A stretch of DNA of 64,000 bases, from positions 124,001 through 188,000 of the forward strand of contig NZ_LZRD01000014.1 in the NCBI RefSeq assembly GCF_001687325.1, written 5' to 3'. Source of the stretch: Streptomyces sp. PTY087I2. Lineage in GTDB: Bacteria > Actinomycetota > Actinomycetes > Streptomycetales > Streptomycetaceae. The position numbers were made by a program, and so were the translations under genes. The notes under the pieces were generated by a model, which worked only from the letters and a program-made list of their open reading frames with translations, was not told where the DNA came from and made no database searches. Numbering within the stretch: position 1 is the first letter of the stretch; each line of letters begins with the position of its first letter. Positions 39,320 to 55,591 of the stretch are shown in pieces.

Positions 39320-40252
39320 GTGAGACATGTCATCGCCCTCGATGTGGGCGGCACCGGAATGAAGGCCGCACTGGTCGGGACCGACGGCACCCTCCTTCAC
39401 GAGGCGCGGCGGGCCACCGACCGGGAGCGCGGCGCCGAAGCGGTCATCGAGTCGATCCTCGCGTTCGCGGCGGATCTGCGGGCCCACGGCGAGAAGCACC
39501 TCGGCGAGAGCGCCGTCGCCGCCGGGGTCGCCGTGCCCGGCATCGTCGACTCCGCGAAGGGCATCGCGGTGTACGCCGCGAACCTGGGCTGGCGCGACGT
39601 ACCGCTGCGCGCCCTGCTCTCCGAGCGGCTGGGCGCCATCCCGGTCGCCCTCGGCCACGACGTCCGCACCGGCGGGCTCGCCGAGGGGCGCATCGGGGCC
39701 GGGCGCGGCACGGACCGCTTCCTGTTCGTCCCGCTCGGCACCGGGATCGCCGGGGCCATCGGCATCACGGGCGCCATCGAGGCGGGCGCCCACGGGGACG
39801 CGGGCGAGATCGGCCACATCGTCGTCCGCCCGGAAGGACCCGAGTGCAGCTGCGGCCAGCGCGGCTGTCTGGAGACGCTGGCCTCCGCCGCCGCGGTGAC
39901 CCGGGCCTGGGCCGCCGCCTCCGGGGACCCCGGGGCGGACGCCGCGGACTGTGCGAAGGCCGTCGCGTCGGGCGACCCGGCGGCGATCGAGGTCTGGCGG
40001 AACGCGGTCGACGCGCTCGCCGCGGGCCTCGTCACCGCGCTCACCCTCCTCGACCCGGGCACGCTCATCATCGGTGGCGGTCTCGCCGAAGCCGGGGAAA
40101 CCTTGTTCACACCACTGCGTGCGGCCGTCGAGGAACGGATCACGTTCCAGAAGCTGCCCCACATCGTCCCGGCGGCCCTCGGGGACACCGCCGGATGCCT
40201 GGGCGCGGGGCTGCTCGCCTGGGACCTACTCGCCACGGAGGTTTCCGCCTGA
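39320..40252 (+). CDS. nagK: ROK-family sugar kinase, probable N-acetylglucosamine kinase
   Basis: A 310-aa ROK kinase: ATP loop LDVGGTGMKAAL near residue 7, catalytic segment GHDVRTGG, GLGTGIAG-type loop (LGTGIAGAIG) and the zinc motif CSCGQRGCLE. Phosphorylates GlcNAc (or a similar sugar) to the 6-phosphate, which NagA then deacetylates. The stop overlaps the nagA ATG (TGATG), and a dre-like site precedes it. GTG 39320 is used although its ribosome binding site is weak. Confidence 0.9.
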   Translation: MRHVIALDVGGTGMKAALVGTDGTLLHEARRATDRERGAEAVIESILAFAADLRAHGEKHLGESAVAAGVAVPGIVDSAKGIAVYAANLGWRDVPLRALLSERLGAIPVALGHDVRTGGLAEGRIGAGRGTDRFLFVPLGTGIAGAIGITGAIEAGAHGDAGEIGHIVVRPEGPECSCGQRGCLETLASAAAVTRAWAAASGDPGADAADCAKAVASGDPAAIEVWRNAVDALAAGLVTALTLLDPGTLIIGGGLAEAGETLFTPLRAAVEERITFQKLPHIVPAALGDTAGCLGAGLLAWDLLATEVSA

Positions 40253-41409
40253 TGGCCGGACGCGCAGCAGACAGCACCGTTCTCGCCGGCGCCCGGGTGG
40301 TGCTCCCCACCGGGACGGTCGAGGACGGCCGGGTGACCGTCGAGGGCACCCGTATCGCCGCCTCCGCACCGGAGGGCGCCCGGACCATCGACCTCTCCGG
40401 CCACTGGGTGGTCCCCGGCTTCGTGGACATGCACAACCACGGCGGCGGCGGGGCCTCCTTCACCTCCGGCACCGTGGACGAGGTCCTCACCGGCATCCGT
40501 ACGCACCGCGAGCACGGCACCACCACCATGGTCGCCTCCACCGTCACCGGCGAGATGGACTTCCTCGCCCGGCGCGCGGGCGAGCTGTCCGAACTGGTCG
40601 AGCAGGGTGATCTGGCCGGGATCCACTTCGAGGGCCCCTTCATCTCGCCGTGCCGCAAGGGCGCCCACAGCGAGGAGCTGCTGCGCGACCCGGACCCGGC
40701 CGAGGTCCGCAAGCTGCTGGACGCCGCGCGCGGCACCGCCCGGATGTTCACCCTCGCCACCGAACTGCCCGGCGGCATCGACTCCGTACGGCTGCTCGCC
40801 GAGCACGGGGTCATCGCCGCGATCGGCCACACGGACGCGACGTACGAGCAGACCGTCGAGGCCATCGACGCGGGCGCGACCGTCGCCACGCACCTGTTCA
40901 ACGCGATGCCGCCGCTCGCCCACCGCGAGCCCGGCCCGATCGCCGCCCTCCTGGAGGACGACCGGATCACCGTCGAGCTGATCAACGACGGCACGCATCT
41001 GCACCCGGCCGTCCTGGAGCTGGCCTACCGCCACAAGGGCGCGGGACGGGTCGCGCTGATCACCGACGCGATGGACGCGGCCGGCTTCGGCGACGGCTCC
41101 TACGACCTCGGGCCGCTGGCGGTCGAGGTCAAGGACGGCGTCGCCCGGCTGGTGGAGGGCGGCTCGATCGCCGGCTCCACGCTCACCCTGGACACCGCGT
41201 TCCGCCGGGCGGTCGTCCTCGACGAGATCCCCGTCGAGGACGTCGTCCGGTCCATCTCCGCCAACCCGGCCCGGCTGCTCGGCGTCTACGACCGGGTCGG
41301 TTCGCTCGACGCGGGCAAGGACGCCGACCTGGTGGTCCTCGACGAGGACTTCGTCCTGAAGGGCGTCATGCGCCGGGGCGAGTGGATCATCGAGCCGAAG
41401 ACGGCCTAG
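40252..41409 (+). CDS. nagA: N-acetylglucosamine-6-phosphate deacetylase
   Basis: A 385-aa amidohydrolase with the metal motif VPGFVDMHNHGGGG near residue 55, the HFEGPFIS segment, GHTDATYEQ, HLFNAMPPL and ITDAMDAAG, all NagA signatures. It makes GlcN-6-phosphate from GlcNAc-6-phosphate. Translationally coupled to nagK. Downstream the normal context is interrupted by an IS relic and the cluster at 41.8-54.5 kb. Confidence 0.95.
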   Translation: MAGRAADSTVLAGARVVLPTGTVEDGRVTVEGTRIAASAPEGARTIDLSGHWVVPGFVDMHNHGGGGASFTSGTVDEVLTGIRTHREHGTTTMVASTVTGEMDFLARRAGELSELVEQGDLAGIHFEGPFISPCRKGAHSEELLRDPDPAEVRKLLDAARGTARMFTLATELPGGIDSVRLLAEHGVIAAIGHTDATYEQTVEAIDAGATVATHLFNAMPPLAHREPGPIAALLEDDRITVELINDGTHLHPAVLELAYRHKGAGRVALITDAMDAAGFGDGSYDLGPLAVEVKDGVARLVEGGSIAGSTLTLDTAFRRAVVLDEIPVEDVVRSISANPARLLGVYDRVGSLDAGKDADLVVLDEDFVLKGVMRRGEWIIEPKTA

Positions 41410-41818: not shown

Positions 41819-43225
41819 TCACAGCGGCGCAGCTGCCGTGAGCGCCGGGGCGCGGGGCGCGTCGATGTCCCGTACGAGGCGCTTCGCGAGCGCCTTGGTG
41901 ATCTCGCCGGCTCGGACCGCCGTGTTGCTCAGCAGGCTGGAGGCGATCCCATGGCTGTGCTCGGTCGGCCCCTGGAGGTAGATCGCAGCGGGGCCCGGGA
42001 GGATGGATTCCACGCTGTAGTCGCGGTTCACACAGACGCGTCCCTTGTCGTCGGTGCGTAGGATCGGCTCGGCGCTGCCGAGTATCCCGTTCAGATCCGT
42101 GGGCCGGTACCCGGTGGCGAGGACCAGGTAGTCGGTGCGCAGGACGTCCTGCCGGCCGGTCGGCAGGAACTCGATCCCGACCCGCACATGCTCGTCGCCG
42201 GCGTCCGCGGTCAGGAGCCGGGTGAGGTTGTGGACGTGCAGTCGCTGCTTCCCCGCGACCTTCTCCTGGTAGAGCCGCCGGTACAGCTCGTCGATCAGTT
42301 CGATGTCCACCACCGAGTAGTTGGTGCTGCGGTGATAGTCGAACATCATCTCCTTGACGTCGTCCGGCGACGTGTAGAAGTGGTCGACCGCTTCCGGGTC
42401 GAAGATCTTGTTGACGAAGGCGCTGTCGTCGGCCGGGGCGTACCCGTAGCGGGCGAAGACGGCGTGGATGTCGGCGTCAGGGAACTCGCCGTGCAAGTGC
42501 GCGACGGTCTCGGCGGCGCTCTGCCCGGCTCCCACCACCGTGAAGCTACGGGGGGTCCGCGCGGCCCCGGCGGGCAGAGTCTCCAGTCGGTCGAGGAGCT
42601 CACTCGTGTGCCACACCCGGTCGGACAGCGAGGTGCCGTCCGGCAGACGGGGCCGCAGCCCGCCCGCCACGACGACGTTCCGTGCGCGCTGGACGGTCGG
42701 CTCGGCCTGCGGGCCGCCGGCCCGGGTGAGGACCTGGAAGTGGGTGACCTCTCCAGCCTCCTCGACCGGAACGACGTCCACGACCTCCCGCCCGTAGTCG
42801 ACCGCGTCCCCGAACGGTTGCGCGGACCACTCCAGGTAATCGTGGAATTCCCTGCGGGAGGGGAACAGCGTCTTATGGTTGATGAAATCGACCAGGCGGT
42901 CCCTGGCGTGCAGGTAGGAGAGAAAGCTGAACCTGCTGCACGGGTTCCGCATGGATACGAGGTCCTTGAGGTAGGACACCTGCATCGTCGTGTCCTTCAG
43001 GAGCATGCCCCGGTGCCAGCCGAACGCCGGCTTCCTCTCGTAGAACCGCGCCGAGACGCGGTCTGCCTCGGGGACCTCCTGGTTGTGCTCGGCCAGTGCG
43101 ATGGCGAGGGCGAGGTTCGACGGACCGAATCCGATGCCCACGACATCGAGCACGTCGCTCCGCCCTGGCGAGCGGAGCACGCCTGTCTCGCTCTCCGCCG
43201 CTGTACGTGTACTCAAGACGGGCAC
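41819..43225 (-). CDS. Flavin-dependent amino acid N-hydroxylase (lysine N6/ornithine N5 monooxygenase family)
   Basis: A 468-aa class B flavoprotein like IucD/SidA/PvdA. FAD loop VVGIGFGPSNLALAIAL is near residue 28, the substrate-side segment KDLVSMRNPCSRFSFLSYL near 105, the NADPH loop TVVGAGQSAAETVAHL near 230, and the LATGYRP motif near 372. These enzymes N-hydroxylate the side-chain amine of lysine or ornithine. Last gene of the minus-strand operon; its GTG is 3 bp after the nucleotidyltransferase stop. No siderophore synthetase is nearby, so the hydroxylamine probably feeds this cluster's own product. The exact amine is unknown. Confidence 0.93.
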   Translation of the reverse strand: MPVLSTRTAAESETGVLRSPGRSDVLDVVGIGFGPSNLALAIALAEHNQEVPEADRVSARFYERKPAFGWHRGMLLKDTTMQVSYLKDLVSMRNPCSRFSFLSYLHARDRLVDFINHKTLFPSRREFHDYLEWSAQPFGDAVDYGREVVDVVPVEEAGEVTHFQVLTRAGGPQAEPTVQRARNVVVAGGLRPRLPDGTSLSDRVWHTSELLDRLETLPAGAARTPRSFTVVGAGQSAAETVAHLHGEFPDADIHAVFARYGYAPADDSAFVNKIFDPEAVDHFYTSPDDVKEMMFDYHRSTNYSVVDIELIDELYRRLYQEKVAGKQRLHVHNLTRLLTADAGDEHVRVGIEFLPTGRQDVLRTDYLVLATGYRPTDLNGILGSAEPILRTDDKGRVCVNRDYSVESILPGPAAIYLQGPTEHSHGIASSLLSNTAVRAGEITKALAKRLVRDIDAPRAPALTAAAPL

Positions 43226-43228
43226 CCC

Positions 43229-44029
43229 TCAGACTCCGAGATCGTCGATGAAAGCAAATTTCGGCAGTTCCCCCGGGTAGACGCGGGACCTCTCCACCGC
43301 CATCCACTCCACGCATGAATCAATTCTTCGCAGCGCGTCCGCCGTGTCGCTGAAGTCGGACATGAGGTCCAGAACACTCCGCATGGCAGGCTCATGTTCC
43401 GGGTAATGCGTCCCGAAGAAATCGCAGCACATGTCCGGATCGCGGGTGTACACCTGCTGCCGCTCCGCCACCAGTTCGAGGCCGGCGCGCAGCACGCGTT
43501 TCACCAGCCGCATGATGAGCGTCTGCGCGAAGGAATCGGACGCGCCGTGCACGGCGTCACGGACGACCTTGAGATCGAGCTCCAGGTTGAAGAGGTGGCT
43601 GAACGCCTCCGGACCGATCCGGTACGGGGCGATGCGCGGCGCGAGGTCCTCGCCGTGGACCAGTGCCGACTGGGTCTTGATGTAGAACCCGCTCTTTCGA
43701 TCGCCGAGTACCGCGGCGACGGACGTGATGGCGAGGTCGATGTCGACGACGGCCGCGTGGCGGTCGAGCGTGCGCTCCGATGCCTCCCCGACCCATTCCC
43801 GGTCGATCTGGTGCTCCCGGCGGGTCACGCCCACCAGATCGAGGTCCGAGCGTCCGAGTACGGCGGTGCCGGTAGCCACCGATCCCCGCACATAGACGCT
43901 GGCGAGGTCCGGATAGCGCGAACGGTACTCCTCCACCAGGCTCATCATGAGGGGGTGCCACTCCGGACCGACCTTGCCGATGTCCGCGAGGTTGATCAAG
44001 TGGCCGTCGGAATCAAGAGGAATGATCAC
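43229..44029 (-). CDS. Nucleotidyltransferase (pol beta superfamily, KNTase/MNT-like)
   Basis: A 266-aa protein with the nucleotidyltransferase motif VYVRGSVATG (Gly49-Ser50) followed by SDLDL (Asp62, Asp64), and a third acidic group in VVDIDLAI (Asp96/98), so all catalytic metal ligands are present. The rest is helical and unlike known antibiotic adenylyltransferases by eye. GTG 44029 overlaps the aminotransferase stop (GTGA). It may attach a nucleotide to an intermediate, or act as self-resistance. Both are inference. Confidence 0.85.
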   Translation of the reverse strand: MIIPLDSDGHLINLADIGKVGPEWHPLMMSLVEEYRSRYPDLASVYVRGSVATGTAVLGRSDLDLVGVTRREHQIDREWVGEASERTLDRHAAVVDIDLAITSVAAVLGDRKSGFYIKTQSALVHGEDLAPRIAPYRIGPEAFSHLFNLELDLKVVRDAVHGASDSFAQTLIMRLVKRVLRAGLELVAERQQVYTRDPDMCCDFFGTHYPEHEPAMRSVLDLMSDFSDTADALRRIDSCVEWMAVERSRVYPGELPKFAFIDDLGV

Positions 44030-45126
44030 TGGCCCGCCCCGGCCGCGAGGAATGCGCCCTCGGTCGCCGCCAGTTCGAGGAACCGGTCGTTCTCCGCGGC
44101 GGCACCCACCGTGACCCGTACGGCCTCGGGGAAGTCGCGGACGAGCACGCCGCCCGCCTTGCAGTGCGCGGCGAAGGCGGCGGGATCCCGCATGGGGAGC
44201 CAGAAGAAGTTCGCGTGCGAGACGGGGGCACGGGGTGCGATCTGCTTCAGCACCGGGAACATGCGGGCACGCTCCGCGGTGATGTACTCCACGCGGCGAC
44301 GTACCTCCTTCTCCTGTTCGAGCGCGGCCAGCGCAGCCACCTCGGCGAACGTGCTGGTGGCGAAGGGCGCGAGGAGCTTGCGCATGGCCTCGGCCACCTC
44401 CGGCGCCGCGGCCAGCCACCCCAGGCGCAGACCGGCCAGGCCCCAGGCCTTCGACATCGTTCGGAGGATCACCACATTGCGCCGGTCGCCGAACTCCACC
44501 AGCCCGTCCGGAACATCGGGGTCGTTGACGAACTCGGCGTACGCCTCGTCAAGGACGACCAGGACCGAGTCCGGGACCGCGTCGATGAACGCGGTGAGCG
44601 CTGCCCTGGTGACGGCGGTGCTGGTGGGGTTGTTGGGGTTGCAGATGAGCACCACGCGGGTGTCGCGGGTGATCGCCGCGGCCATCGCGTCAAGGTCCTG
44701 GTCGACGCCGTCGGAACAGGAGACTGGGACCGGGCGCACATGGCCGCCCACGGCGACGACCGGATAGGCCTCGTAGGAACGCCAGGGGAAGACGAACTCC
44801 TGGCCCGGCTCGCACACCGCCTTCAGGAGCAGTTCGAGCAGGTAGACGGAGCCGAAGCCGGTCACGACCCGGTCCGGGGTGATGCCGTGGTGGCCGGCCA
44901 GGGCGCTCCGCACCGCGACCGCCGCCATGTCCGGATAGCGGTTGGAGCCGGTGGCGGCCCGGATGACGGCGTCGAGCACTCCGGGAAGCGGGCCGAAGGG
45001 AAGCTCGTTGAGGGCCAGGCGTGCAGCGTCGGGCGCCTGGGGCACACCCCTGCCGTCGAGCGGAATGGGACTCGGCAGGTAGGACGGAAGTCTGTCCAGT
45101 TCCGGCCGGGTAAGTTGCGCTTTCAA
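44026..45126 (-). CDS. HisC-like PLP aminotransferase
   Basis: A 366-aa fold-type I aminotransferase related to histidinol-phosphate aminotransferase: substrate/PLP segments LNELPFGP, SNRYPD, the TGFGSVYLLELLLKA loop, CNPNNPTS, VVLDEAYAEF and the PLP lysine in RTMSKAWGLAGLRLGW (Lys226). TTG 45126 has GGAGG 4 nt upstream; the longer frame back to 45192 has no such site. In a cluster without his genes, it probably aminates a phosphorylated or aldol-derived keto compound. Confidence 0.92.
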   Translation of the reverse strand: MKAQLTRPELDRLPSYLPSPIPLDGRGVPQAPDAARLALNELPFGPLPGVLDAVIRAATGSNRYPDMAAVAVRSALAGHHGITPDRVVTGFGSVYLLELLLKAVCEPGQEFVFPWRSYEAYPVVAVGGHVRPVPVSCSDGVDQDLDAMAAAITRDTRVVLICNPNNPTSTAVTRAALTAFIDAVPDSVLVVLDEAYAEFVNDPDVPDGLVEFGDRRNVVILRTMSKAWGLAGLRLGWLAAAPEVAEAMRKLLAPFATSTFAEVAALAALEQEKEVRRRVEYITAERARMFPVLKQIAPRAPVSHANFFWLPMRDPAAFAAHCKAGGVLVRDFPEAVRVTVGAAAENDRFLELAATEGAFLAAGAGQ

Positions 45127-45188
45127 CCGTCCTCCTGAGGATGGATGGACCGGCGGTTCTCGCGAACCATCCGGGGAGCCGGGCGGGA

Positions 45189-46019
45189 TCAACCCGCCGT
45201 GGGCGCGAGCTCCTTAGGAGCGGGCATCCGGGAGGGGTCGGTGGTCCATGCCCCGTCCAGGTGCTCGATGTAGTCGTAGAGGGGCTGGAACTGCGCGCGT
45301 GCGCTCTCCTCGGAGGCCACGTACTTCCGCGTCCTGAGCGCGACCTCGTGCGGAATCGGTTCCAACGGGCCGAGGCCGGCGGACAACACCTGCGCCTGAC
45401 AGGCCCGCTCCAGGGTGATGTAGCGCCAGGCCGCCGCTTCCACCGATGCCCCCACCGCCAGCAGACCGTGGTACTTGAGGATCAAGGTGTTGACCTCGCC
45501 GAGCGCCTCGGCGGTCGCCCGGCCGTCCTCGAAGGTGTGCGGAAGCCCGCCGAACTCGTGGTCCACGGCCTGGTCCTGGTAGAAGGCGCACGTGTCCTGG
45601 CTGATGATCGGAAGGATCTGGCCGGTGGCGGCCCAGATGCGCCCGTAGGTGGAGTGGAAGTGCGCGGAGCCCACGACGTCGGGACGCGCGGCGAGCACAC
45701 TGGAGTGCAGCACCAGGGCCCCGATGTTGACCGGGTGGCGGCCCGCCAGGACGTTGCCCTCGTAGTCCAGCAGCACCAGATCGTCGACGTCGATCGTCGA
45801 GAGGTGCACCCCGACGGGGTTCACCCAGAACGCGTTCGTCAGCTCCGGGTCACGGCAGGCGAAATGGCCGGCGAACCCCTCGCCCTCGTCATAGCCCCAC
45901 CGCGAGAAAAGGCGAAGTGCCGCGATCAGCTGCGCCAGTCGGTGGTGCCGCTCCTCGATGGCCGACCGCACGATCTCCGGATCGTCAGTGTCGTTCACCA
46001 GGACGATCGAACCCTTCAT
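45189..46019 (-). CDS. Class II aldolase/adducin-family protein
   Basis: A 276-aa protein with the zinc site AHFHSTYG (His120, His122) and KYHGLLAVG (His184), plus GHFACRDP near residue 51 and the INPVGVHLSTIDVDDL-type segment (VNPVGVHLSTIDVDDLVLLD begins near 66). The family includes sugar-phosphate aldolases, dehydratases and epimerases. ATG 46019 is preceded by GAGGGGA. The frame is open upstream to 46367, but that part is Pro/Arg-rich and not protein-like. Its place before a HisC-like gene suggests C-C bond formation or cleavage giving the keto acceptor. Confidence 0.88.
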   Translation of the reverse strand: MKGSIVLVNDTDDPEIVRSAIEERHHRLAQLIAALRLFSRWGYDEGEGFAGHFACRDPELTNAFWVNPVGVHLSTIDVDDLVLLDYEGNVLAGRHPVNIGALVLHSSVLAARPDVVGSAHFHSTYGRIWAATGQILPIISQDTCAFYQDQAVDHEFGGLPHTFEDGRATAEALGEVNTLILKYHGLLAVGASVEAAAWRYITLERACQAQVLSAGLGPLEPIPHEVALRTRKYVASEESARAQFQPLYDYIEHLDGAWTTDPSRMPAPKELAPTAG

Positions 46020-46433
46020 GGTGTATTCCCCTCGTTGTCGGATGCGTTGGCGGAGCCGAACGCCCGGGGCCGCCGTACGGCGGTGGCGAACCCAGCGGTG
46101 TGCACGGCGAAGAAGGCAGGCCCGTGGCCGGTGTGGGTGTGGGCCGGGCGCGAGGCAGGGCACGACGGGCGGCCGGTCAGAAGATGCCTGGCGCGCAGGT
46201 CGAAGTGGCGCGGGGCGTCGCCCGCGCGGGGCGGGACATCGGCGTGGGCACCCGCCCGATGCCCGAAATGGCGGGGCCCGTGCAGCGTGTTGAGGCGTGT
46301 GACGCCCCGCGCGCACGCCGGGGGAACGAAGGCCGCACGGCTCGTCCCGGCAGGTGCGCGGCGCCACCCGCCCGGGCCGACTGTCCGCGCAGGACGGTCA
46401 CCCGGGACTTGATATATCCGGTGGATCGTAGGA
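46020..46433. other. Gene-free gap between aldolase and kinase
   Basis: No protein-like frame on either strand. Near the kinase stop there is an A/T-rich island (GATATATC near 46413-46420) and a repeated GGATC; these may be a weak promoter for the aldolase operon, but no good -35/-10 pair is evident. Confidence 0.5.
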
Positions 46434-47102
46434 TCAGGAAGCCAAAACCTTTGAAAAGATTTCAGGGAATGCAGACACCACGGCCTGCCTCATCGCCGCC
46501 TGTACTGTTTCGAAATCACCATCCCCCGGGACCGAAACAAAGTCGGCGAACTCAGGCAGGCCGACATAAGCCTCCCGGAAGGCCGCCAAGAATTCCGGGC
46601 TCTCCTCGTCGATTCCGCGCACGTTGATGCGGCGTACGGCCTCGGCCGGAGAGACGTCCAGGAAGATCGTGAGATCCGGCTTGCGCGCGCCGCCGAGAAG
46701 CCTGCGCAGGAAGTCCACACTGCCGACCCCCTCGGCCTTGGCGAGAGCGTACTGGCAGTAGACATAGCGGTCGACGATCACGAGGTCCGGGGACTTCGTG
46801 AGACCCCTCTCGAAGGCGGAGACGCGCGCCAGTTGCGAGCATGCGGAGACGAGGCGCATGGTCTCGCCTCCGATGAGGTCCAGATGGTCCTCGAAACCGT
46901 CCTGCTCGGCCATCAAGTTCAGCGCCTTGCGCACCGGTGCCATGGTGAGGCTCTCGTGGGCCTGCGCCGGCACCCCCTGCGAGTGGAGCCAGTCGCCGAG
47001 CATCCGGACCTGGGAAGACTTACCCGCCCCGTCCAGACCCACTACGGCTACCAGGCGTCCGGTATTGATTCCGGAATCCGCAGGTTCTTGCTGAGTGCGC
47101 AC
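46434..47102 (-). CDS. P-loop nucleotide kinase, thymidylate-kinase-like
   Basis: A 222-aa kinase with Walker A VVGLDGAGKSS (Gly22-Ser29), the DRY segment VIVDRYVYCQYALA near residue 112 and the lid-side LDVSPAEAVRRINVRG near 150. This is the dTMP kinase family fold. A housekeeping tmk is not expected in this setting, so it may phosphorylate a cluster intermediate or nucleotide. GTG 47102 is used. It is the first gene of the minus-strand operon. Confidence 0.85.
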   Translation of the reverse strand: MRTQQEPADSGINTGRLVAVVGLDGAGKSSQVRMLGDWLHSQGVPAQAHESLTMAPVRKALNLMAEQDGFEDHLDLIGGETMRLVSACSQLARVSAFERGLTKSPDLVIVDRYVYCQYALAKAEGVGSVDFLRRLLGGARKPDLTIFLDVSPAEAVRRINVRGIDEESPEFLAAFREAYVGLPEFADFVSVPGDGDFETVQAAMRQAVVSAFPEIFSKVLAS

Positions 47103-47647
47103 TTCTACCGCCTAGAGACTGTTTTTGTATCGCTGAGGAAAACCACCCGGCCCGCCGCAGACACCACGGAGGGGCGGTCATATCACGAGGGGCGCCGGTT
47201 ATAGATAGCGGAATCCGCGACTCTGCACTCGGAGCCCAGCCGGGCGACCTCAGCGAACCTAGACCGGCACCCGAGATCCTGTAAACCGCTTTCCTATTGC
47301 ATCTCGGGGAATGAGATGAGGCTCCCGGATAGACACGTTCCGCTTAGGCCGAACCCCCCGCCCTAAACGGACAAAAATGGGTCAAGCGGCGTGAAGCAAT
47401 GAGTGCGGAAGTCGAACTGTTGACGTCTAATGACGGGGCCGCCTATCGTACTTACTCGGTTGATCATCTGGTTGACCGCCGACCACGACACCTCGTTGCC
47501 GTCGGCGTCACAGATTGTCCCGTTTCGGCCCCCGCAACGCCGCGAGGGGCGTTTCAGTCATCGTCTTGTCCAGCTCGGAAATCCATGGATTTACCGACTG
47601 CGATCGCCGGTACCCCTTTCACGGCTTAGTGAGTTTTAGGAGTCGCA
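47103..47647. promoter_or_regulatory. Divergent promoter region of the cluster
   Basis: A 545-bp region, clearly A/T-richer than the rest of the window, between the two operons. It contains a candidate sigma-HrdB-type promoter at 47420-47449 and a 6-bp hairpin CATCTC/GAGATG (47300-47318). A 76-codon frame at 47399 exists but is not convincing. No regulator gene is present in the cluster. Confidence 0.65.
47420..47449 (+). promoter_or_regulatory. Candidate promoter for the plus-strand operon
   Basis: TTGACG (47420-47425), an 18-bp spacer, and TATCGT (47444-47449), fitting the Streptomyces TTGAC-N-TAnnnT pattern. It would give a leader of about 190 nt before the TTG start at 47648. Confidence 0.45.
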
Positions 47648-48919
47648 TTGACAACGCAGTTGTCCGCTGATGATCAGGGGTCCGCTATGACGGTCTCCAG
47701 GCGCCTCGTCCTCGCCGACATCGCCCGTCAGTACACGGTCGCGCCGGTCGAGAACGCGCCGGTGTGCGTTGTCGAGCTCGCCCCCGAACAGGGCGACGGC
47801 GTCCGGGTCGTGGAGTACCTGCGTCAGGAGGACACGGTCGCGCGATCCGTGGCGGTGCTGGATTCCGCGGGCCGGGCGCAGACTCCCGAGCCACCGGCCG
47901 GGCCGACCGCGGCCTGGGGCCGCACGGGGCTCGACGAGGGGTTCACGGACTACCTGAGCACCGCTCTGGCAGCGCTGGGGCATCCCGCGGCCGCGGTCCA
48001 CGAGGACGCGGCTCTCGCCTCGCTCGCCCCGGTCATGCTGCTCCGTACGCACGAGGGCGCGGAGCAGTCCCGTACCGAGGTGCTGATGTGCACCCGGGTA
48101 CGTGCCGTCGGGGTGCTCTTCACCCGAGTCGCCCGGTTCGACCACCGTGCCGACGCCGAGCTCGGCGCACTGGTCGCGACGGCGTTCGAGCGCCGGACCG
48201 AGCTGGAGAACTTCGTCCGCGTCGAGGACAAGACCCAGCTGCTGTACGAGAAGGACATCGAGATCGAGGAGAAGATCACCCTCCTCGACGAGGCGAACAT
48301 CTGGTCCCTCACCCAGGGCATGTGGGCAGCCGTCGAGGCAGGGAAGCTGCCGGGGTTCATCCCCGACCCCGGCTACGAGCTGACCCGCTGGCACTTCGTC
48401 CAGCACAACTTCGAGGTGACCGCGCCGGCCGACCGGGTCGGCCACTTCGCCTTCCAGGAGTACCCGGACGGCAGGTACCGGCTCAAGATGAAGAAGTTCG
48501 CGAAGGACTCGCTGCGGCGCGTCGAGACCTTCCGCAACGGCATAGAGGTCCCGGAGGGCGACTTCGAGGGCTATCTCTCCCGTGAGTTCCCGGACCTGAG
48601 CGTCCAGCGCCTGCCGAGCCTGCGGCGGACCAAGTTCGACATCAACATCCAGTCCGTCACCACCGGCCACGGCTTCGGCATCGAAACGGACGAGGTCACC
48701 CTCAGCGACGGCACCGGACGCGTGATGCGCCAGGTGGAGACGGAGTACCTGGACACCCGTCACCACGACGGCATGGACGGATCGACGATCGACGCGGAGC
48801 TCGGCCGCCTGACCACCTTGGTCGAGGCGCATCTCGCCGCACTCGGTATCTCGGCCAAGCGCGGCCTGTACTCGAAACTCTCCTTCCTGCGCGACAGCGC
48901 GCGAACCGCCGACCGCTGA
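47648..48919 (+). CDS. CYTH-like (triphosphate tunnel) domain protein
   Basis: A 423-aa protein. Residues 205-209 read EIEEK, the ExExK hallmark of CYTH triphosphate-binding enzymes, followed by alternating basic and acidic strands (RYRLKMKKF near 279, MRQVETEYLDTRH near 364). The first 195 residues form an extra domain that I do not recognise. CYTH proteins hydrolyse or cyclise triphosphates and bind nucleotides or polyphosphate. TTG 47648 has a perfect AGGAG at 47638-47642. First gene of the plus operon. Confidence 0.75.
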   Translation: MTTQLSADDQGSAMTVSRRLVLADIARQYTVAPVENAPVCVVELAPEQGDGVRVVEYLRQEDTVARSVAVLDSAGRAQTPEPPAGPTAAWGRTGLDEGFTDYLSTALAALGHPAAAVHEDAALASLAPVMLLRTHEGAEQSRTEVLMCTRVRAVGVLFTRVARFDHRADAELGALVATAFERRTELENFVRVEDKTQLLYEKDIEIEEKITLLDEANIWSLTQGMWAAVEAGKLPGFIPDPGYELTRWHFVQHNFEVTAPADRVGHFAFQEYPDGRYRLKMKKFAKDSLRRVETFRNGIEVPEGDFEGYLSREFPDLSVQRLPSLRRTKFDINIQSVTTGHGFGIETDEVTLSDGTGRVMRQVETEYLDTRHHDGMDGSTIDAELGRLTTLVEAHLAALGISAKRGLYSKLSFLRDSARTADR

Positions 48920-49004
48920 CAGCGGGGAGCCCTACTCCGGGCAGAGGACGGCGGCATGACCGCCTCCTCATGCAGATTCCGGCCGGACCATAAGGACGTG
49001 CGGT

Positions 49005-50228
49005 GTGAAGACAAGCCGAAGGGGGATCAGGTCTTTTCATGACATCACACACAGTGATGTCGATGTGAAGCGCCCCATCGTGACTCTGTTCAGCGGTGGC
49101 CTGGACAGTACCTACCTCCTGCACCGGCTGGTGCAGGCTGGCGCCACCGAGGTGCACGCTCTCAGCGTGGACGTCGGCGGCGACGAGAAGCCGGATCAGA
49201 TCCGGTACATTGCCGACCAGTTGGGCGTACGACTGCACCTCATCGACGAACGGGACGCGTTCCTGCAGGAGTTCGTCCAGCCCGCGATCGCCGCCCACGG
49301 CGTCTACCTGGACACCCACCCCGTGAGTTCGTCCCTGAGCCGACCGCTCATCGCCCGCGCGGCCGTGCGTGTGGCGCGGGAGCTGGACGCGGGGATGATC
49401 CTGCACACCGCCAACCGCTCGCAGAACACCCTGCGCAGGCTGAACGGCGCACTGGACCAGCTCGGGTTCGAGGGGCACTTCGGCACGCCCTACGACCTTC
49501 ACCCCGTGGACCGGGAGATGAAGATCAAGGAGCTGCGGGCCGTCGGGCTGGAGGAGATGGCGGAACGCACGGCCAGCGGCGACTCGAACCTGTGGTGCCG
49601 CGAGTTCGAATCCGGAATCCTGGACGACCCCGAACGCCACGAGGTCCCGGAAGCGTTCTACCGGTGGAGCGCGAGTCGAGGGGTTCCCGAAGCGGAGTAC
49701 CTGGAGGTGGCCTTCCGCGCCGGAACCCCCGTCGCCGTCGACGGACGGGAGGCCCCGCTCGCGGACATCGTCTCCTCGCTCAACCGGACGGCGGGGGCAC
49801 ACGGCCTGGGCCGCTACACCGGCCTTGAGCACCTGCCGGACGGCATGAAAGTCCTCGAAGTACGGGAGATGCCCGCCGCCTGGCTGCTGCTGTCGTCCCG
49901 ACGCCATCTGGAGACGGCGACGCTCGACGCCGAATCCCTCAGGGAGAAGCTCCACGTCGAGCAGATCTGGGTCCGTGAGGCACTCGAAGGACGCTGGTTC
50001 GGCGGTCTGCGAGCGGCCTGCCAGGCCTTCATCACAGAACTGACGGCACCGGTAACCGGATCGGTGCGCTGGCGGCTGGACCGCAGCCGGACCTCCACGG
50101 TCTCGATCGTCGCCGACGCCACCAAGTACGTACGCGACAGGGAGGGCTGGGAGCAGGCCTCCATCCGGAGAGAGCTGTCCTGCCTGGCCGGAGCGACGAA
50201 CGACGAGAAGGGAAACGGACTGTGGTAG
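49005..50228 (+). CDS. Argininosuccinate-synthase-like ATP-dependent enzyme
   Basis: A 407-aa protein with the PP-loop TLFSGGLDST (30-35 is SGGLDS) and the ArgG order: SSSLSRPLIARAAVRVAREL near 108, then NLWCREFESGILDDP near 195. ArgG adenylates citrulline's ureido group for attack by aspartate. The usual GKGNDQVRF segment is replaced here by NRSQNTLRR, so the substrate pair is probably different. GTG 49005 has AAGGA upstream; GTG 49066 is possible. No argininosuccinate lyase gene is nearby. Confidence 0.83.
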   Translation: MKTSRRGIRSFHDITHSDVDVKRPIVTLFSGGLDSTYLLHRLVQAGATEVHALSVDVGGDEKPDQIRYIADQLGVRLHLIDERDAFLQEFVQPAIAAHGVYLDTHPVSSSLSRPLIARAAVRVARELDAGMILHTANRSQNTLRRLNGALDQLGFEGHFGTPYDLHPVDREMKIKELRAVGLEEMAERTASGDSNLWCREFESGILDDPERHEVPEAFYRWSASRGVPEAEYLEVAFRAGTPVAVDGREAPLADIVSSLNRTAGAHGLGRYTGLEHLPDGMKVLEVREMPAAWLLLSSRRHLETATLDAESLREKLHVEQIWVREALEGRWFGGLRAACQAFITELTAPVTGSVRWRLDRSRTSTVSIVADATKYVRDREGWEQASIRRELSCLAGATNDEKGNGLW

Positions 50229-50986
50229 GAACCGCACCGGACACCGCGCCCGCGACCGGCCTCCTGGTCATCGTCGATGCGACCGCGCATACCGCTCGTA
50301 CAGCCCATGTTCTCGACTGCCGCACCGTGTTCGTGCAGCGCCCCGGCACTCCCGTGCACGAACTGGTCGACGACTCCTCGGGCTATTACAGCGTGGACTT
50401 CACCCAGGACACGCTGTTCACCGGGTTCGTCGAGGAGGTGCTGCGCCCGCTGGCGCCCACCGCGGTGATCTCCCTCAGCGACGAGGGCGCGCGTGCGGCC
50501 GCGCTGGCGAACGCCGTCCTCGGCACGGCCGGCACCCCGGTCGAGGTGATCGAGCGCCTCGCGGCAGGCCCTCCCGGCGAGGCTGCCCACGGCGCCACGG
50601 ACCGGTGGGCATACACCTTCAGTGAGGCCGGGCGGCACCGATGGGTGGCGCTCATGGGCGCCGATGCCTCGCCGCTCCCGGCCGAACGTGTCCTGCCGGA
50701 AGAGGTGCTGAGCGCCGATGAGTACGAGAGCGTCGGGGCGGCCCTGAACGGGTTCCTCGACGCCGCGGGCCTGCGGAACGGACCCGCCCGTATCCGGCTG
50801 CGCGGCCGGGACGGCGAGGTGCGCGTCCTCGGCGGCGCACCCACCGTCGGCACGGACGAGCAGAGCGAGTTCATCCGGCGGCACACCGGATTCGACCTGA
50901 CGCACGCCGCCCTGGCCGGCGCCGTCGGCCGCGCGGACGACCGTCTCACCGGCCCCGCCCAGCCTTGGAAGGAGGCGACCCGATGA
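50222..50986 (+). CDS. Truncated ATP-grasp-like protein
   Basis: A 254-aa protein. The first 120 residues look like a pre-ATP-grasp domain (LLVIVDATAHTARTAHVL begins it; LAPTAVISLSDEGARAAALANA follows). The C-terminal part resembles the end of ATP-grasp ligases (RLRGRDGEVRVLGGAP, GTDEQSEFIRRHTGFDLTHAAL), but the central ATP-binding lysine region and metal-binding Glu-x-Asn are not seen. It overlaps both neighbours (7 bp with the ArgG-like gene, 4 bp with the full ligase) and may be a partner subunit. Function unknown. Confidence 0.7.
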   Translation: MVGTAPDTAPATGLLVIVDATAHTARTAHVLDCRTVFVQRPGTPVHELVDDSSGYYSVDFTQDTLFTGFVEEVLRPLAPTAVISLSDEGARAAALANAVLGTAGTPVEVIERLAAGPPGEAAHGATDRWAYTFSEAGRHRWVALMGADASPLPAERVLPEEVLSADEYESVGAALNGFLDAAGLRNGPARIRLRGRDGEVRVLGGAPTVGTDEQSEFIRRHTGFDLTHAALAGAVGRADDRLTGPAQPWKEATR

Positions 50987-52197
50987 CGAGGACGACCGCG
51001 CTCTTCATCAACGCCCACCCGTACTCGCACTTCCACCGCAGCGGTACCCACATCCTGCCGACCGCGGAAATCGACATTCACATGGTGGCCCGCAAACAGA
51101 TCGACGGTGGCGCCTGGGGGTTCGCCGAGAACCCCCTGGACCACGTCGCGCTGTGCGACGCCAACGACGAGGACCGCTGGCGGGAAATCTGCGCGTGGAC
51201 GCTGCGCAACCACCCCATCAGCAGGGTCATAGCCGTGCACGAAAGGGCGGTACTCCTCGCGGCGGAGATGCGCTCGATGTTCGGTCTCGTCGGGATGGAC
51301 TACGAGACCGGACTGCGTTTCCGCGACAAGGTGAGGATGAAGGAGGCCGTACGGGCGGCCGGCGCCGCCGCCGTTCCGGACTTCGCCGCCCTCGACACCC
51401 CCGAAGATCTGGGGAAGGTGGACTGGAGCACGGGCCGCAAGGTCATCAAGAGCCGACTGGGCCTCGCCGCGAAGGACCTCTACATCGTCCCGTCCTTGGA
51501 CGAGGCGCGGAGCGTGGTCGACCGCCTCGATCTCTCCGACTCCCATTACGAGATCGAGGAGTTCGTCAGCGGCCAGATATACCACTGCGACTCCGTCGTA
51601 CAGGGCGGACGCATCGTCTTCAGCAGCGTCGGCAGGTATCTGGCGGACCCCGCGAGCTACACCCCGGGGGGCATGTTCGGCACCGTCCTCGTGGGCGAGA
51701 GCCAACTGCACAAGCGCATCACCGAAGTGAACGCGGACGTCCTGGCCGCATTGGGGCTCAAGGACGGCACCACGCACCTGGAGCTGTTTCACAGCGCATC
51801 CGACCAACTGGTCTTCTGCGAGGTCGCCGCACGTCCGCCGGGCGGCATCATCCCCCCGGTCATCCAGGCGCAGTACGGCTTCGACATCGTCGAGACGCAG
51901 ATCCGCCTCGACGCCGGGCTGAACATCTCCCTGGGATCGGTCCCTGAGCCCGTAACCGGCAGCGGTACGAGCGGCTTCATCTCCTTCTACCCGGGCGGCT
52001 CCGGCTCCCGGGGGATCGCACCGGACCGGCTGGCCACGCTGGGGGTCGTGGAACACAGCACGCACCGCGGCGCCGGCAACAGCAGCGGCGGCGTCCGGCA
52101 CTCCACGGACTTCCTCGACTCGTACGTGGTCCAGGCCCCCGACGACGAGACGCTGCTGCGGCAGCTGGCCCGCATCGAGGACGAGTACCGGCGGTGA
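50983..52197 (+). CDS. ATP-grasp carboxylate-amine ligase
   Basis: A 404-aa ATP-grasp enzyme with RKVIKSRLGLAAKDLYIV (the ATP lysines), YEIEEFVSGQIYHCDSVV, and the metal-binding LELFHSASDQLVFCEVAARPPGG near 270. Such ligases activate a carboxylate as an acyl phosphate and couple it to an amine; in small-molecule clusters they make peptide bonds without an NRPS. ATG 50983 is chosen over the upstream TTG at 50965 because it has GGAGG and overlaps the preceding stop (ATGA). Confidence 0.9.
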   Translation: MTRTTALFINAHPYSHFHRSGTHILPTAEIDIHMVARKQIDGGAWGFAENPLDHVALCDANDEDRWREICAWTLRNHPISRVIAVHERAVLLAAEMRSMFGLVGMDYETGLRFRDKVRMKEAVRAAGAAAVPDFAALDTPEDLGKVDWSTGRKVIKSRLGLAAKDLYIVPSLDEARSVVDRLDLSDSHYEIEEFVSGQIYHCDSVVQGGRIVFSSVGRYLADPASYTPGGMFGTVLVGESQLHKRITEVNADVLAALGLKDGTTHLELFHSASDQLVFCEVAARPPGGIIPPVIQAQYGFDIVETQIRLDAGLNISLGSVPEPVTGSGTSGFISFYPGGSGSRGIAPDRLATLGVVEHSTHRGAGNSSGGVRHSTDFLDSYVVQAPDDETLLRQLARIEDEYRR

Positions 52198-52268
52198 ACG
52201 CGTGCGGAGCGTTCACCACCGCGCGAGCGCGCCGCACCCGGCCCACTTCCTTGAACGAGAGAACTGGC

Positions 52269-52367
52269 ATGCCTGACTTCGGCCCGAACGGGCTTCGGAC
52301 AGCGGCGGGGCACCGACGTCCCGCCTCCTCGTCCGACCTCCGCGCCCGGACAGGCGCGGACGTATGA
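52269..52367 (+). CDS. Possible 32-residue peptide before the MFS gene
   Basis: A short frame, MPDFGPNGLRTAAGHRRPAS and so on, ends with TGA overlapping the MFS ATG (ATGA), an arrangement typical of coupled genes here. It has only a weak purine-rich site upstream and mixed third positions. It could be a coupling leader, a peptide substrate, or chance. Confidence 0.25.
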   Translation: MPDFGPNGLRTAAGHRRPASSSDLRARTGADV

Positions 52368-53593
52368 CCGCCACGTCCCCGCCCACGCCGCCCACCGACA
52401 CCCGCGTGCTGCGCGTACTCATCACGTCCTCGATGTTCTCGAAGGTCGCCGACTGGCAACTGGGAATCGTCATTCCGCTCGCCGTGCTGGCGGAATCGGA
52501 CTCCGTGGCACTGGCGCTCGTCTCGTTCGCCCTGCGCGGTGTCTCGTACGTGGGATCCCCCTTTCTGGGCTCGGTGATCGACCGTTTCGACAAGCGGACG
52601 GTCTATGTCCTCGCCCAGCTGCAACAGGCCGTGTGCCTGGTTCTGCTTGCGTCGACGCTGTCCAGCCAGCTCTCCGTGGCCCTGTTGGTCCTCCTCTCCG
52701 GGGTCGGGGGCGTCGCGAGTTCGATCACCGGCCAGTTCGTGCTGATCCCCGTGCTGATCTCCCCGCCCCTCCGTGCCACGGCCGTCGCCAAGCTGAACTC
52801 GGCCATCGAGGTGTCCAAGGTCATCGGGCTGCTCCTGGGCGGAACCGCCTTCGCCCTGCTCGGTCCGGCGGCGGCCTCGCTGTGCATCGGGGCCCTGTAC
52901 CTGGTCGCGGGCTGTATCGCCCGGCTGCTTCCCCAGGCACCGTCGAGCCATCAGAGGATGGATATCCGGCGGGACCTCGCGATCGGATTCCGCTGGGTCG
53001 GGCGCCGCGAGATCCTCTGGCTCGTCGTGACCATGTCGATGACGAACCTCGCCATCGGGCAGCTGGAGCCCGCCCTCATCACCCAGTTCAGCGACGGGGG
53101 GATGAACACCGGTGTGATCTCCGGGGTGATGGCCACGGGCCTGCTCATGGGCGCACTCGCCAGTCGGCTCGCCCCGGCCATCGTTCCCCGCTGGAGCACC
53201 GAACGCCGCGTGCTGGCGGCCCAGGTGCTGGGACTGGTCGGCCTGGCCCTCATCGCCACGCCGCTGCTCCCCCTGCGGCTCCTCGGATTCATGGTGGAGT
53301 GCTTCGCGGTCGCCGTCAGCAACGTGGCCTCCATCACCTACCGGCAGGAGACGATTCCGGCCGACGTCGCCGGCCGGGCCAACGCGACGATCCGCATGTT
53401 CATCACCGGGGCCTCGCCCCTGTCCGGGTTCCTCTTCGCATGGGCGAGCGGTCTCGACGGATTCCGGTACTGGCTGCCGGCGCTGGGCCTGTGGGGCGCC
53501 GCAGTCGTGGTCTGGGCCGTCTACACCCGTACTTCTGAACGTGCCGCCGAGAAGGCGGACGCCCTGGAAGGAGCTTCCCTTGGAGATCGCTGA
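52364..53593 (+). CDS. MFS transporter
   Basis: A 409-aa major facilitator with 10-12 hydrophobic segments, a GSVIDRFDKR loop (residues about 69-78) between segments 2 and 3, and an RRDLAIGFRW central loop. It resembles the MFS_3/enterobactin-exporter-like class that exports small metabolites. Likely exporter and self-resistance determinant for the cluster product. Its 3' end overlaps the acyltransferase gene by 14 bp. Confidence 0.9.
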   Translation: MTATSPPTPPTDTRVLRVLITSSMFSKVADWQLGIVIPLAVLAESDSVALALVSFALRGVSYVGSPFLGSVIDRFDKRTVYVLAQLQQAVCLVLLASTLSSQLSVALLVLLSGVGGVASSITGQFVLIPVLISPPLRATAVAKLNSAIEVSKVIGLLLGGTAFALLGPAAASLCIGALYLVAGCIARLLPQAPSSHQRMDIRRDLAIGFRWVGRREILWLVVTMSMTNLAIGQLEPALITQFSDGGMNTGVISGVMATGLLMGALASRLAPAIVPRWSTERRVLAAQVLGLVGLALIATPLLPLRLLGFMVECFAVAVSNVASITYRQETIPADVAGRANATIRMFITGASPLSGFLFAWASGLDGFRYWLPALGLWGAAVVVWAVYTRTSERAAEKADALEGASLGDR

Positions 53594-54536
53594 GCAGGAC
53601 GGTGTGGTCGTCGCCACGGTGGACCGGGCGGAGGCCGAGCGGCAGGCATGGAAGAGCGCCGGGGCGCCGGTCGACATCGTCCGGCTCGCGGAACCGGACA
53701 GCCTCGACGAGTCCGCTCTCGCCGGTCTGGGATTCGTGACGCGCCCGCGCTGGATCAACTGGTGCGCTCCCGTCAAGGAGTCGGCGGCGGAATTCGAGGC
53801 CGCGCTCCCCGGCACCGAGCGCCGAAACGCCCGTCTCGGCCGCCGCTTCGTCCAGGACGAAGGCTTGAAGGTGAGTGTCCACGTCGGGCTGACCCCGGAA
53901 CTCGTGGACGAGTTCCTGGTCGTCTACGACCGTCAGATCGAAGCGATGCCGCGCGGGAAGAACTACGCGCGCCGTTGGCGCGACCGCCTCCTGGACGCGT
54001 CCGACGAGCACGTCAGCGTCAGCGTGCACAGCGGCGCCCGCATGATCGTCGGATCGCTGTGGTGGATCCGCCCCGAGCAGTCCGTGATGCAGATGCGCTT
54101 CTCCGCCGCCTCGCCCGACGCGCGCGCGAGCCGGGTCATGCGCGTCGCCTACCTGGAGGCGCTGCAGTTCGCCCGGGAGAGCGGACTGGCCTTCGCGTCC
54201 CTCGGCAACGACCCTTCCCTCTTCGGCCATGTCGTCCAGCCCGGGCTCTTCACGTTCAAGAGCCGCCTCGGCTTCACCCCGGTGCCCTCCCGGATTCTCG
54301 ACCCCCGGCTGGCGGGCGAGTACGCCGACAGGTTTCTCACCTTGCGGTCGCTGTCCGACCCCGCGCTCGTGGTGACGTGGGGAGGGCTCCGAGGCGCGCC
54401 GTTGTCCTGGCCGGAAACCGCACAGGCCCCCGGACACGATCTTCTGATCCTGTCGGCCGCACCCGACGAGGCGCTGAAGGACCGATTCCGCGCCCGGGGC
54501 CTCCGGGACGCCCGGTCGGTGACGGTGAGCACGTAA
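53580..54536 (+). CDS. FemAB/GNAT-like acyltransferase
   Basis: A 318-aa protein with the FemAB/BioF2-type acyltransferase pattern: ERRNARLGRRFVQDEGLKV near residue 80, LVDEFLVVYDRQIEAMPRGK, and the later SRVMRVAYLEALQFARESGL with a final YDFGG-like SLGNDPSLFGHVVQPGLFTF. Members transfer an acyl or aminoacyl group. TTG 53580 has AAGGAG 6 nt upstream and overlaps the MFS gene. It could acylate the hydroxylamine, as in hydroxamates, or add an aminoacyl group. Both are inference. Confidence 0.72.
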   Translation: MEIAEQDGVVVATVDRAEAERQAWKSAGAPVDIVRLAEPDSLDESALAGLGFVTRPRWINWCAPVKESAAEFEAALPGTERRNARLGRRFVQDEGLKVSVHVGLTPELVDEFLVVYDRQIEAMPRGKNYARRWRDRLLDASDEHVSVSVHSGARMIVGSLWWIRPEQSVMQMRFSAASPDARASRVMRVAYLEALQFARESGLAFASLGNDPSLFGHVVQPGLFTFKSRLGFTPVPSRILDPRLAGEYADRFLTLRSLSDPALVVTWGGLRGAPLSWPETAQAPGHDLLILSAAPDEALKDRFRARGLRDARSVTVST

Positions 54537-54585: not shown

Positions 54586-54664
54586 GACATGATCATCAGA
54601 TCGTGTGCCGCCGGCCGGGGGCGCGCACCGCTGGGGCCATGCACCGAGGGAGGGGCCGGCCGAG

Positions 54665-55591
54665 ATGATCCTGACCGTCACCCTGAACACCGCGCTCGAC
54701 GTGACGTACACCGTCGACGCGCTCGTCCCGCACGGCAGCCACCGGGTCGGCGAGGTCATCGAACGGCCCGGCGGCAAGGGCCTCAACGTCGCCCGGGTGC
54801 TGGGGGCGCTGGGCCACGACGCCGTGGTCACCGGGTTCGTCGGCGGTGCGAACGGCGACGTCCTGCGCGGCCTCCTCGCCCCGCTCCCGCCGCGCGACGC
54901 CCTCGTCGAGGTCGCCGGGAACACCCGCCGCACCCTCGCGATCACCGACCGGTCGAGCGGCGACACCACCCAGCTCAACGAGCCCGGACCGCAGGTGAGC
55001 CCCGCCGAATGGGCCGCCTTCCTGCGGACGTACGAGGAGCTGGTCGCCGGGGCCGACGCGGTCGCGCTCTGCGGTTCCCTGCCGCCCGGCATCCATGTCG
55101 GGGCGTACGCCGAACTCGTCCGGATCGCCCGCGCCGCCACCGTACCCGTACTGCTGGACACCAGCGGCGAACCGCTGCGCCGGGGCATCGCCGCCCGCCC
55201 CGACCTGGTCAAGCCGAACGCGGAGGAGCTGGCCCGGCTGACCGGCTCCCGCGATCCGCTGCGCGCCGCGGGGGACGCCCGCCGCCGCGGGGCCCACGCC
55301 GTGGTCGCCTCGCTCGGCCCGGAGGGGGTGCTCGCGCTCACCCCGGACGGCGTCTGGCGGGCCGCCCCGCCCGCACCCGTGCGCGGCAACCCGACCGGCG
55401 CGGGCGACTCCGCGGTCGCCGGGCTGCTGTCCGCCCTGGCCGAGGGCCTGCCCTGGCCGGAGCGGCTGGCCCGGGCGGTGGCCCTGTCGACGGCGACGGT
55501 GCTGGCCCCGACGGCCGGCGAGTTCGACGCGGCGGCCTACGCGGACCTGCTGCCGCGCGTCACGGTGGAGCCGCACGTCCCGGCCCCCTGA
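54665..55591 (+). CDS. PfkB-type hexose-phosphate kinase (1-phosphofructokinase family)
   Basis: A 308-aa ribokinase-fold enzyme: MILTVTLNTALDVTY start, ERPGGKGLNVARVLGALGH near residue 36, SLPPG, and the catalytic NPTGAGDSAVAGLL near 257. It phosphorylates a sugar phosphate such as fructose-1-phosphate or tagatose-6-phosphate. ATG 54665 fits the family start; a GAGGGAGGGG run lies upstream. In other Streptomyces I recall it directly following nagA, from which it is separated here by 13 kb. Confidence 0.92.
   Translation: MILTVTLNTALDVTYTVDALVPHGSHRVGEVIERPGGKGLNVARVLGALGHDAVVTGFVGGANGDVLRGLLAPLPPRDALVEVAGNTRRTLAITDRSSGDTTQLNEPGPQVSPAEWAAFLRTYEELVAGADAVALCGSLPPGIHVGAYAELVRIARAATVPVLLDTSGEPLRRGIAARPDLVKPNAEELARLTGSRDPLRAAGDARRRGAHAVVASLGPEGVLALTPDGVWRAAPPAPVRGNPTGAGDSAVAGLLSALAEGLPWPERLARAVALSTATVLAPTAGEFDAAAYADLLPRVTVEPHVPAP

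Follow-up and report, generated by a model that had tools for sequence, protein, structure and literature searches.

What eleven genes of Streptomyces sp. PTY087I2 might produce, encoding as they do an amino acid N-hydroxylase, an ATP-grasp ligase and an exporter and no nonribosomal peptide synthetase (NRPS) or polyketide synthase (PKS), is the question raised by positions 41819-54536 of the 64,000-nucleotide stretch analysed here (contig NZ_LZRD01000014.1), the whole of which is referred to as the window. The window genome measures 8.16 Mb and is Streptomyces-like, and the eleven genes, A to K, fill the block flanked by nagA (39844-41409) on one side and a pfkB kinase gene (about 54605-55591) on the other. 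They form two divergent operons, A-E running leftward and F-K rightward from a spacer of ~545 bp at 47103-47647, and all eleven show a strong high-GC coding signal, with a third-position GC content of about 0.8-0.9. A preliminary description had listed the same eleven genes in this layout, with an exporter and an N-hydroxylase in a cluster free of NRPS and PKS genes; all of this was borne out, and its family calls for A-E, G, I and J agree with the Pfam and NCBIfam assignments used here for the cluster proteins. The reading proposed below, for which belief and doubt are about equally warranted, is that the cluster makes an exported, NRPS-independent small molecule that is built by an amino acid ligase and carries a nitrile together with an oxidised nitrogen.

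The preliminary description had tied its cluster call to co-occurrence of the genes in other genomes. Genes B-K recur, identically ordered and oriented, in three other members of the genus, G383 (L091/L097), G336 (L092/L093) and G413 (L140), and are thus co-inherited rather than scattered. Protein identities to these relatives span 60-88% (B 70-73%, C 82-84%, D 85-88%, E 80-82%, I 77-79%, J 76-82%, K 77-80%). Pairwise ratios of nonsynonymous to synonymous substitution (dN/dS) against G383 and G336 are 0.13-0.45 for the genes other than H, with D the most constrained of the cluster at 0.13, while those of H are 0.54-0.66. The flanks of the cluster in all three relatives differ from those in the window, those of G383 and G413 being alike; moreover, about ten related Streptomyces have nagA directly next to pfkB, and the block is therefore an insertion. 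Gene I was found at an identity of at least 77% in 3 of 393 sampled Streptomyces, the window's own included, and gene B in only two of 294 genomes of the order, namely the window genome and G413. Because B-K recur in order, mostly under purifying selection and between different flanks, the block is a real, rare and mobile biosynthetic cluster, which at least four strains have inherited largely as one unit.

Two partial loci show that the cluster is modular. In Streptomyces regalis NRRL 3151 (L068/L057), the exporter, FemAB-like, nitrile synthetase, H-fragment and ATP-grasp genes lie in one block (J-K-G-H-I; 51-69% identity, with J at 65% and K at 51%) beside heptose-phosphate genes; this locus differs in having those genes and a second ATP-grasp, and in lacking B-F and an N-hydroxylase in the stretch read. 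A contig scan by two N-terminal patterns only returned S. regalis alone, which says little on spread. The second partial relative, G308 (L094/L096), shares the triphosphate tunnel and ATP-grasp genes (F-H-I), and carries the N-hydroxylase (74%) and desaturase-type oxygenase (72%) of the complete relatives that are described below. However, it has no ArgG-related gene over the family cut-off genome-wide and no B-D nearby, and its locus contains carbamoyltransferase, kinase and ATP-binding cassette (ABC) transporter genes.

The nitrile in the proposed product rests on gene G (49005-50228, +). Its protein scores 560 bits against the curated family NF038212, 'argininosuccinate synthase-related protein' (cut-off 425), and among solved structures it matches the nitrile synthetase entries 9lei/9leh with 318 bits and true ArgG with 137 bits. 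The 9lei sequence itself passes the NF038212 cut-off, at 527.6 bits. These entries are taken to be ArtA, the structure of which is cited as Zeng et al. 2025 (PMC13060819), and to which G is 43% identical over 386 residues. ArtA and NitB catalyse the dehydration of an amide to a nitrile, and in ArtA the amide is contacted by Q146, S197 and D199 (PMC13060819). Residues Q140, S191 and D193 of G align with these three, given a numbering offset of 29 that was adopted since all three residues then match, and Q, S and D occupy the same positions in all bacterial NF038212 members aligned. In the ArgG of the strain itself these positions hold G, S and D, and the motif GKGND, the aspartate-binding element of ArgG, is retained; in its place the protein of gene G has RSQNT. 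As judged from the alignment, only the glutamine and the remodelled aspartate site set G apart from ArgG, S and D being common to both. G also fails the ArgG equivalog TIGR00032 (181 bits, cut-off 268), and a housekeeping ArgG is encoded elsewhere in the window genome; family, motif and separate housekeeping copy together rule out G as an ArgG duplicate for arginine synthesis. The preliminary description had counted the ArgG-like enzyme among those that join parts, a role that is not supported for this member of the nitrile-synthetase family, which has lost the aspartate site. Since it belongs with ArtA in NF038212, keeps ArtA's Q, S and D and has lost that site, G probably performs amide-to-nitrile chemistry and not a part-joining ligation.

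Within the same cluster, G might instead form an amidine or guanidine, through ArgG-like adenylation of a ureido or amide oxygen followed by attack of an amine other than aspartate. Such a reaction would suit an enzyme in which the fold, the SGGLD ATP loop and the S/D pair of true ArgG are all retained. Yet a nitrile synthetase of the same curated family is by far the closest characterised relative of G, the aspartate motif is remodelled while Q146 is family-specific, and the cluster has no lyase with which to split an ArgG-type adduct, so that this course appears unlikely.

NF038212 itself reaches beyond this cluster. Members over the cut-off occur in 15 of 247 sampled Streptomyces, and the family is also present on rhizobial and Burkholderia replicons. 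Its contexts elsewhere, in Streptomyces and Rhizobium, are NRPS loci or a set of an ArgG-related gene, a PF10014 2-oxoglutarate/iron dioxygenase and a drug/metabolite transporter (DMT) exporter. This three-gene set was seen at L100:7044-9958, on a plasmid of Rhizobium sp. NXC24, and at L060:9334-12463; by virtue of the link to ArtA, it is a candidate for a minimal pathway to a nitrile amino acid that is hydroxylated and exported.

The oxidised nitrogen in the proposed product raises a different question, as the N-hydroxylase of the window is not that of its relatives. In G383, G336 and G413, an N-hydroxylase, NMO2, and then an oxygenase of the PF00487 desaturase family lie between I and J; among solved relatives NMO2 is closest to 6xbb and DfoA, and the oxygenase is a distant relative of GntB, the guanitoxin arginine hydroxylase. 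The window cluster has neither between I and J, and no desaturase homologue was detected in the window genome. What it does have there is a short segment at 52252-52314 (+) that aligns by blastn with the beginning of the G336 NMO2 gene (77% over 64 bp, E 1.5e-6), separately from the match to gene I, and gives similar alignments to NMO2 of G383 and G413. Judging by these alignments, the segment is a deletion scar, the 5' remnant of NMO2.

Conversely, none of the other three complete clusters has gene A (41819-43225, −). It encodes a flavin N-hydroxylase of the L-lysine N6-monooxygenase type (PF13434, E 4.5e-105), of which the best solved relative is MbtG (9nns, 538 bits), although A stands outside any mycobactin-type NRPS cluster. 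A is only 32-33% identical to the NMO2 proteins and belongs to a different subfamily. Its nearest homologue found, at 70% identity, lies in a different cluster of another Streptomyces, G203, at a locus (L121:2192-11077) with deoxynucleoside-kinase-like, carbamoyltransferase, desulfhydrase-like pyridoxal phosphate (PLP) and GNAT-like genes; a second A-type N-hydroxylase, 54% identical, is encoded elsewhere in the window genome. The simplest account of these sequences is that A is a lineage-specific replacement of the ancestral N-hydroxylase. The amino acid N-hydroxylase noted in the preliminary description is thus present, albeit as a replacement peculiar to this lineage.

The same observations could be read as decay, in which the pathway of the window strain is breaking down after loss of NMO2 and the desaturase-type oxygenase, with A an unrelated passenger. 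The scar, the lack of a detected desaturase homologue and the degenerate state of H (see below) would all agree with this. Nevertheless, B-G and I-K are intact and constrained, A is itself intact and, as part of the same operon, begins 4 bp past the stop of B, and the degeneration of H is shared by the relatives; decay is accordingly a rather improbable explanation. Alternatively, the resemblance of A to MbtG and of K to GNAT/FemAB-like proteins might recall a hydroxamate siderophore, for which A would hydroxylate and K acylate lysine. No IucA/IucC-type synthetase or NRPS match was found among the eleven proteins, however, and a siderophore was rejected for want of a synthetase. No role in siderophore formation is known for the nitrile synthetase, aldolase, HisC-like enzyme or kinase, and the restriction of A to one of the four complete clusters, as well as the second A-type enzyme of the genome, likewise speak against this explanation, which is very improbable indeed.

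Assembly in the absence of an NRPS would fall to an ATP-grasp enzyme. Gene I (50983-52197, +) encodes an ATP-grasp ligase of the L-amino acid ligase type (PF13535), with a profile match of E 9e-26 to the solved L-amino acid ligase 4wd3. The product of gene H (50222-50986, +) is 34% identical to a full-length ATP-grasp protein in G308, yet its ATP-grasp core is deleted in the window and in G383, and the N-terminal part alone is left in G336 and S. regalis. From its sequence, H is read as a non-catalytic partner. Of the two ATP-grasp-related proteins in the preliminary description, both are indeed homologous to ATP-grasp enzymes, but H is degenerate and has lost its core, and I alone looks active.

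Genes B-F, in turn, are inferred to act on phosphorylated intermediates. Gene F (47648-48919, +) has no Pfam match, and its earlier label as a CYTH-like protein was upheld by motif and fold. The catalytic-type residues E205, E207 and K209 (the ExExK motif), K280, K282 and E364 are invariant among 14 homologues, and the top Foldseek matches of an AlphaFold2 model (mean predicted local distance difference test, pLDDT, 81.8) are triphosphate tunnel enzymes at probability 1.00; the TM-score to the whole query is only about 0.30, F having about double the length of single-domain members. Motif and model thus identify F as a CYTH/triphosphate tunnel enzyme. Gene E (46434-47102, −) encodes a thymidylate-kinase-like P-loop kinase (PF02223, E 7e-18; best thymidylate kinase structure match E 2e-13), and gene D (45189-46019, −) a protein of the class II aldolase/adducin family (PF00596, E 1.4e-35; NF004855, 291 bits, cut-off 255) in which histidine metal-ligand motifs were seen by eye. 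Gene C (44026-45192, −; true start likely near 45126) encodes a PLP enzyme resembling HisC and phenylalanine aminotransferase (NF002878, 386 bits, cut-off 374; best solved relative 4r2n, 251 bits). Because C is HisC-like, a phosphorylated substrate seems at least as likely for it as the building of an amino acid by aldolase and transaminase. Gene B (43229-44029, −) encodes a Pol-beta-type nucleotidyltransferase with a GS..SDLDL motif (PF01909, E 5e-6) and no close solved relative among the structures searched. Pantoea and Vibrio plasmid matches to B were discarded as co-occurrences, both neighbourhoods having been read without any other cluster gene. On the plasmid of Pantoea agglomerans ZJU23 (L089:10004-10771), the distant B-like nucleotidyltransferase lies ~8 kb from an NRPS gene.

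The homologues of F found elsewhere adjoin nucleotide-type genes, namely dCTP-deaminase-like, nucleotide-kinase and 7-deazaguanine-type genes. By eye, those at L043 and L044 stand beside a fusion of dCTP-deaminase-like and pyruvate phosphate dikinase (PPDK)-like parts and phosphodiesterase-like, HPr-kinase-like, nucleotide-kinase and several ATP-grasp genes, apparently another nucleotide-type cluster, while that at L046:1887-3723 has QueD-, QueE- and FolE-like genes no more than about 6 kb away, which suggests a 7-deazaguanine-type cluster.

Taken with the kinase, nucleotidyltransferase and triphosphate tunnel families of the window, these neighbourhoods, and the heptose-phosphate genes next to J-K-G-H-I in S. 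regalis, lend something to the idea of an antibiotic of nucleoside or nucleotide type, built much as pseudouridimycin is. The ATP-grasp enzyme would then add an amino acid to an aminated core, either sugar or nucleoside, and the amide would be N-hydroxylated, with the three phosphate-handling enzymes working on phosphorylated intermediates. Pseudouridimycin is the nearest pathway in logic, as its pum/sap genes encode ATP-grasp ligases, a flavin N-hydroxylase, an aminotransferase and a kinase (PMC10127198), to which the ligase I, the N-hydroxylase A (NMO2 in relatives), the aminotransferase and the kinase correspond. It also provides precedent for amide building by ATP-grasp enzymes alongside a flavin N-hydroxylase (PMC10127198). 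Unlike it, however, the cluster has no pseudouridine synthase, and no flavin alcohol oxidase was seen, whereas a nitrile synthetase, class II aldolase, nucleotidyltransferase and triphosphate tunnel enzyme are added. The pseudouridimycin pathway itself was rejected since its defining TruD (PF01142) is absent: none was found in the six genomes tested (G000, G308, G413, G336, G383 and G097), control genomes being positive. The cluster also lacks any nucleoside-forming or glycosyl-transfer gene, and C is HisC-like and not a recognised 5'-aminotransferase. A nucleoside-type product is consequently doubtful.

The two remaining genes would complete the pathway. Gene J (52364-53593, +) encodes a major facilitator superfamily (MFS) exporter (PF07690, E 1e-18), and gene K (53541-54536, +) a putative FemAB/GNAT-like acyl- or aminoacyltransferase with a weak family match (PF13480, E 2e-4, at the cut-off); the structure model of K was too poor (pLDDT 51) and was left unused. 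A 2-phosphosulfolactate-phosphatase-like gene, recognised by eye, adjoins K in G413 (L140:2518-3243) and G383 (L097:11821-12546), and in G308 (L122:12086-12850) another lies at a distance of about 7 kb from the desaturase gene. It may be either a shared flank or a cluster member.

Assembled into a nitrile-forming pathway, these parts suggest the following course. B-E, aided by F, would make a phosphorylated amino building block, and I, perhaps steadied by H, would join an amine to an amino acid bearing a primary carboxamide, for instance glutamine or asparagine. The N-hydroxylase would oxidise an amine or amide nitrogen, and G would adenylate the carboxamide and eliminate its oxygen to leave the nitrile. 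Acylation or aminoacylation by K and export by J would follow. In the window lineage, the MbtG-type lysine N-hydroxylase would stand in for both the ancestral N-hydroxylase and the desaturase-type oxygenase, and because of this replacement the relatives probably make a different product.

Several considerations weigh against this pathway. Its substrates and product are hypothetical, and what B-F and K do, and in which order, is guessed from the families to which they belong, the match of K being marginal. B might be a self-resistance enzyme. G is only 43% identical to ArtA, the family contexts differ, and it could catalyse another reaction, such as the formation of an amidine; of the three diagnostic residues, moreover, S and D also occur in true ArgG. 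Finally, loss of the desaturase-type oxygenase could mean that the pathway in the window is partly broken.

The preliminary description had recognised the combination from no described pathway, and none was found in the open literature, which was the scope of the search, biosynthetic gene cluster databases such as MIBiG lying outside it. ArtA, the family relative that shares the Q/S/D set of G, serves in the biosynthesis of auranthine, which is an NRPS product (PMC13060819), whereas G belongs to an NRPS-free ATP-grasp cluster. Tentatively, and with somewhat more doubt than belief, the product may represent a new natural-product class: a ligase-assembled molecule with an N-hydroxyl, or an N-O or N-N group derived from it, and a carboxamide-derived nitrile formed by an ArtA-family enzyme, in which the oxidation has been changed by an N-hydroxylase swap.

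Nitriles are prized as protease-inhibiting groups. They are rare in microbial peptides, and auranthine was named as the sole nitrile-containing peptide natural product before those of the paper that named it (PMC13060819). If the proposed reading is true, the cluster and the NF038212 family would provide a searchable handle on many nitrile-bearing metabolites hidden by the annotation 'argininosuccinate synthase-related', and the natural N-hydroxylase swap would allow two oxidation variants of a single pathway to be readily compared.

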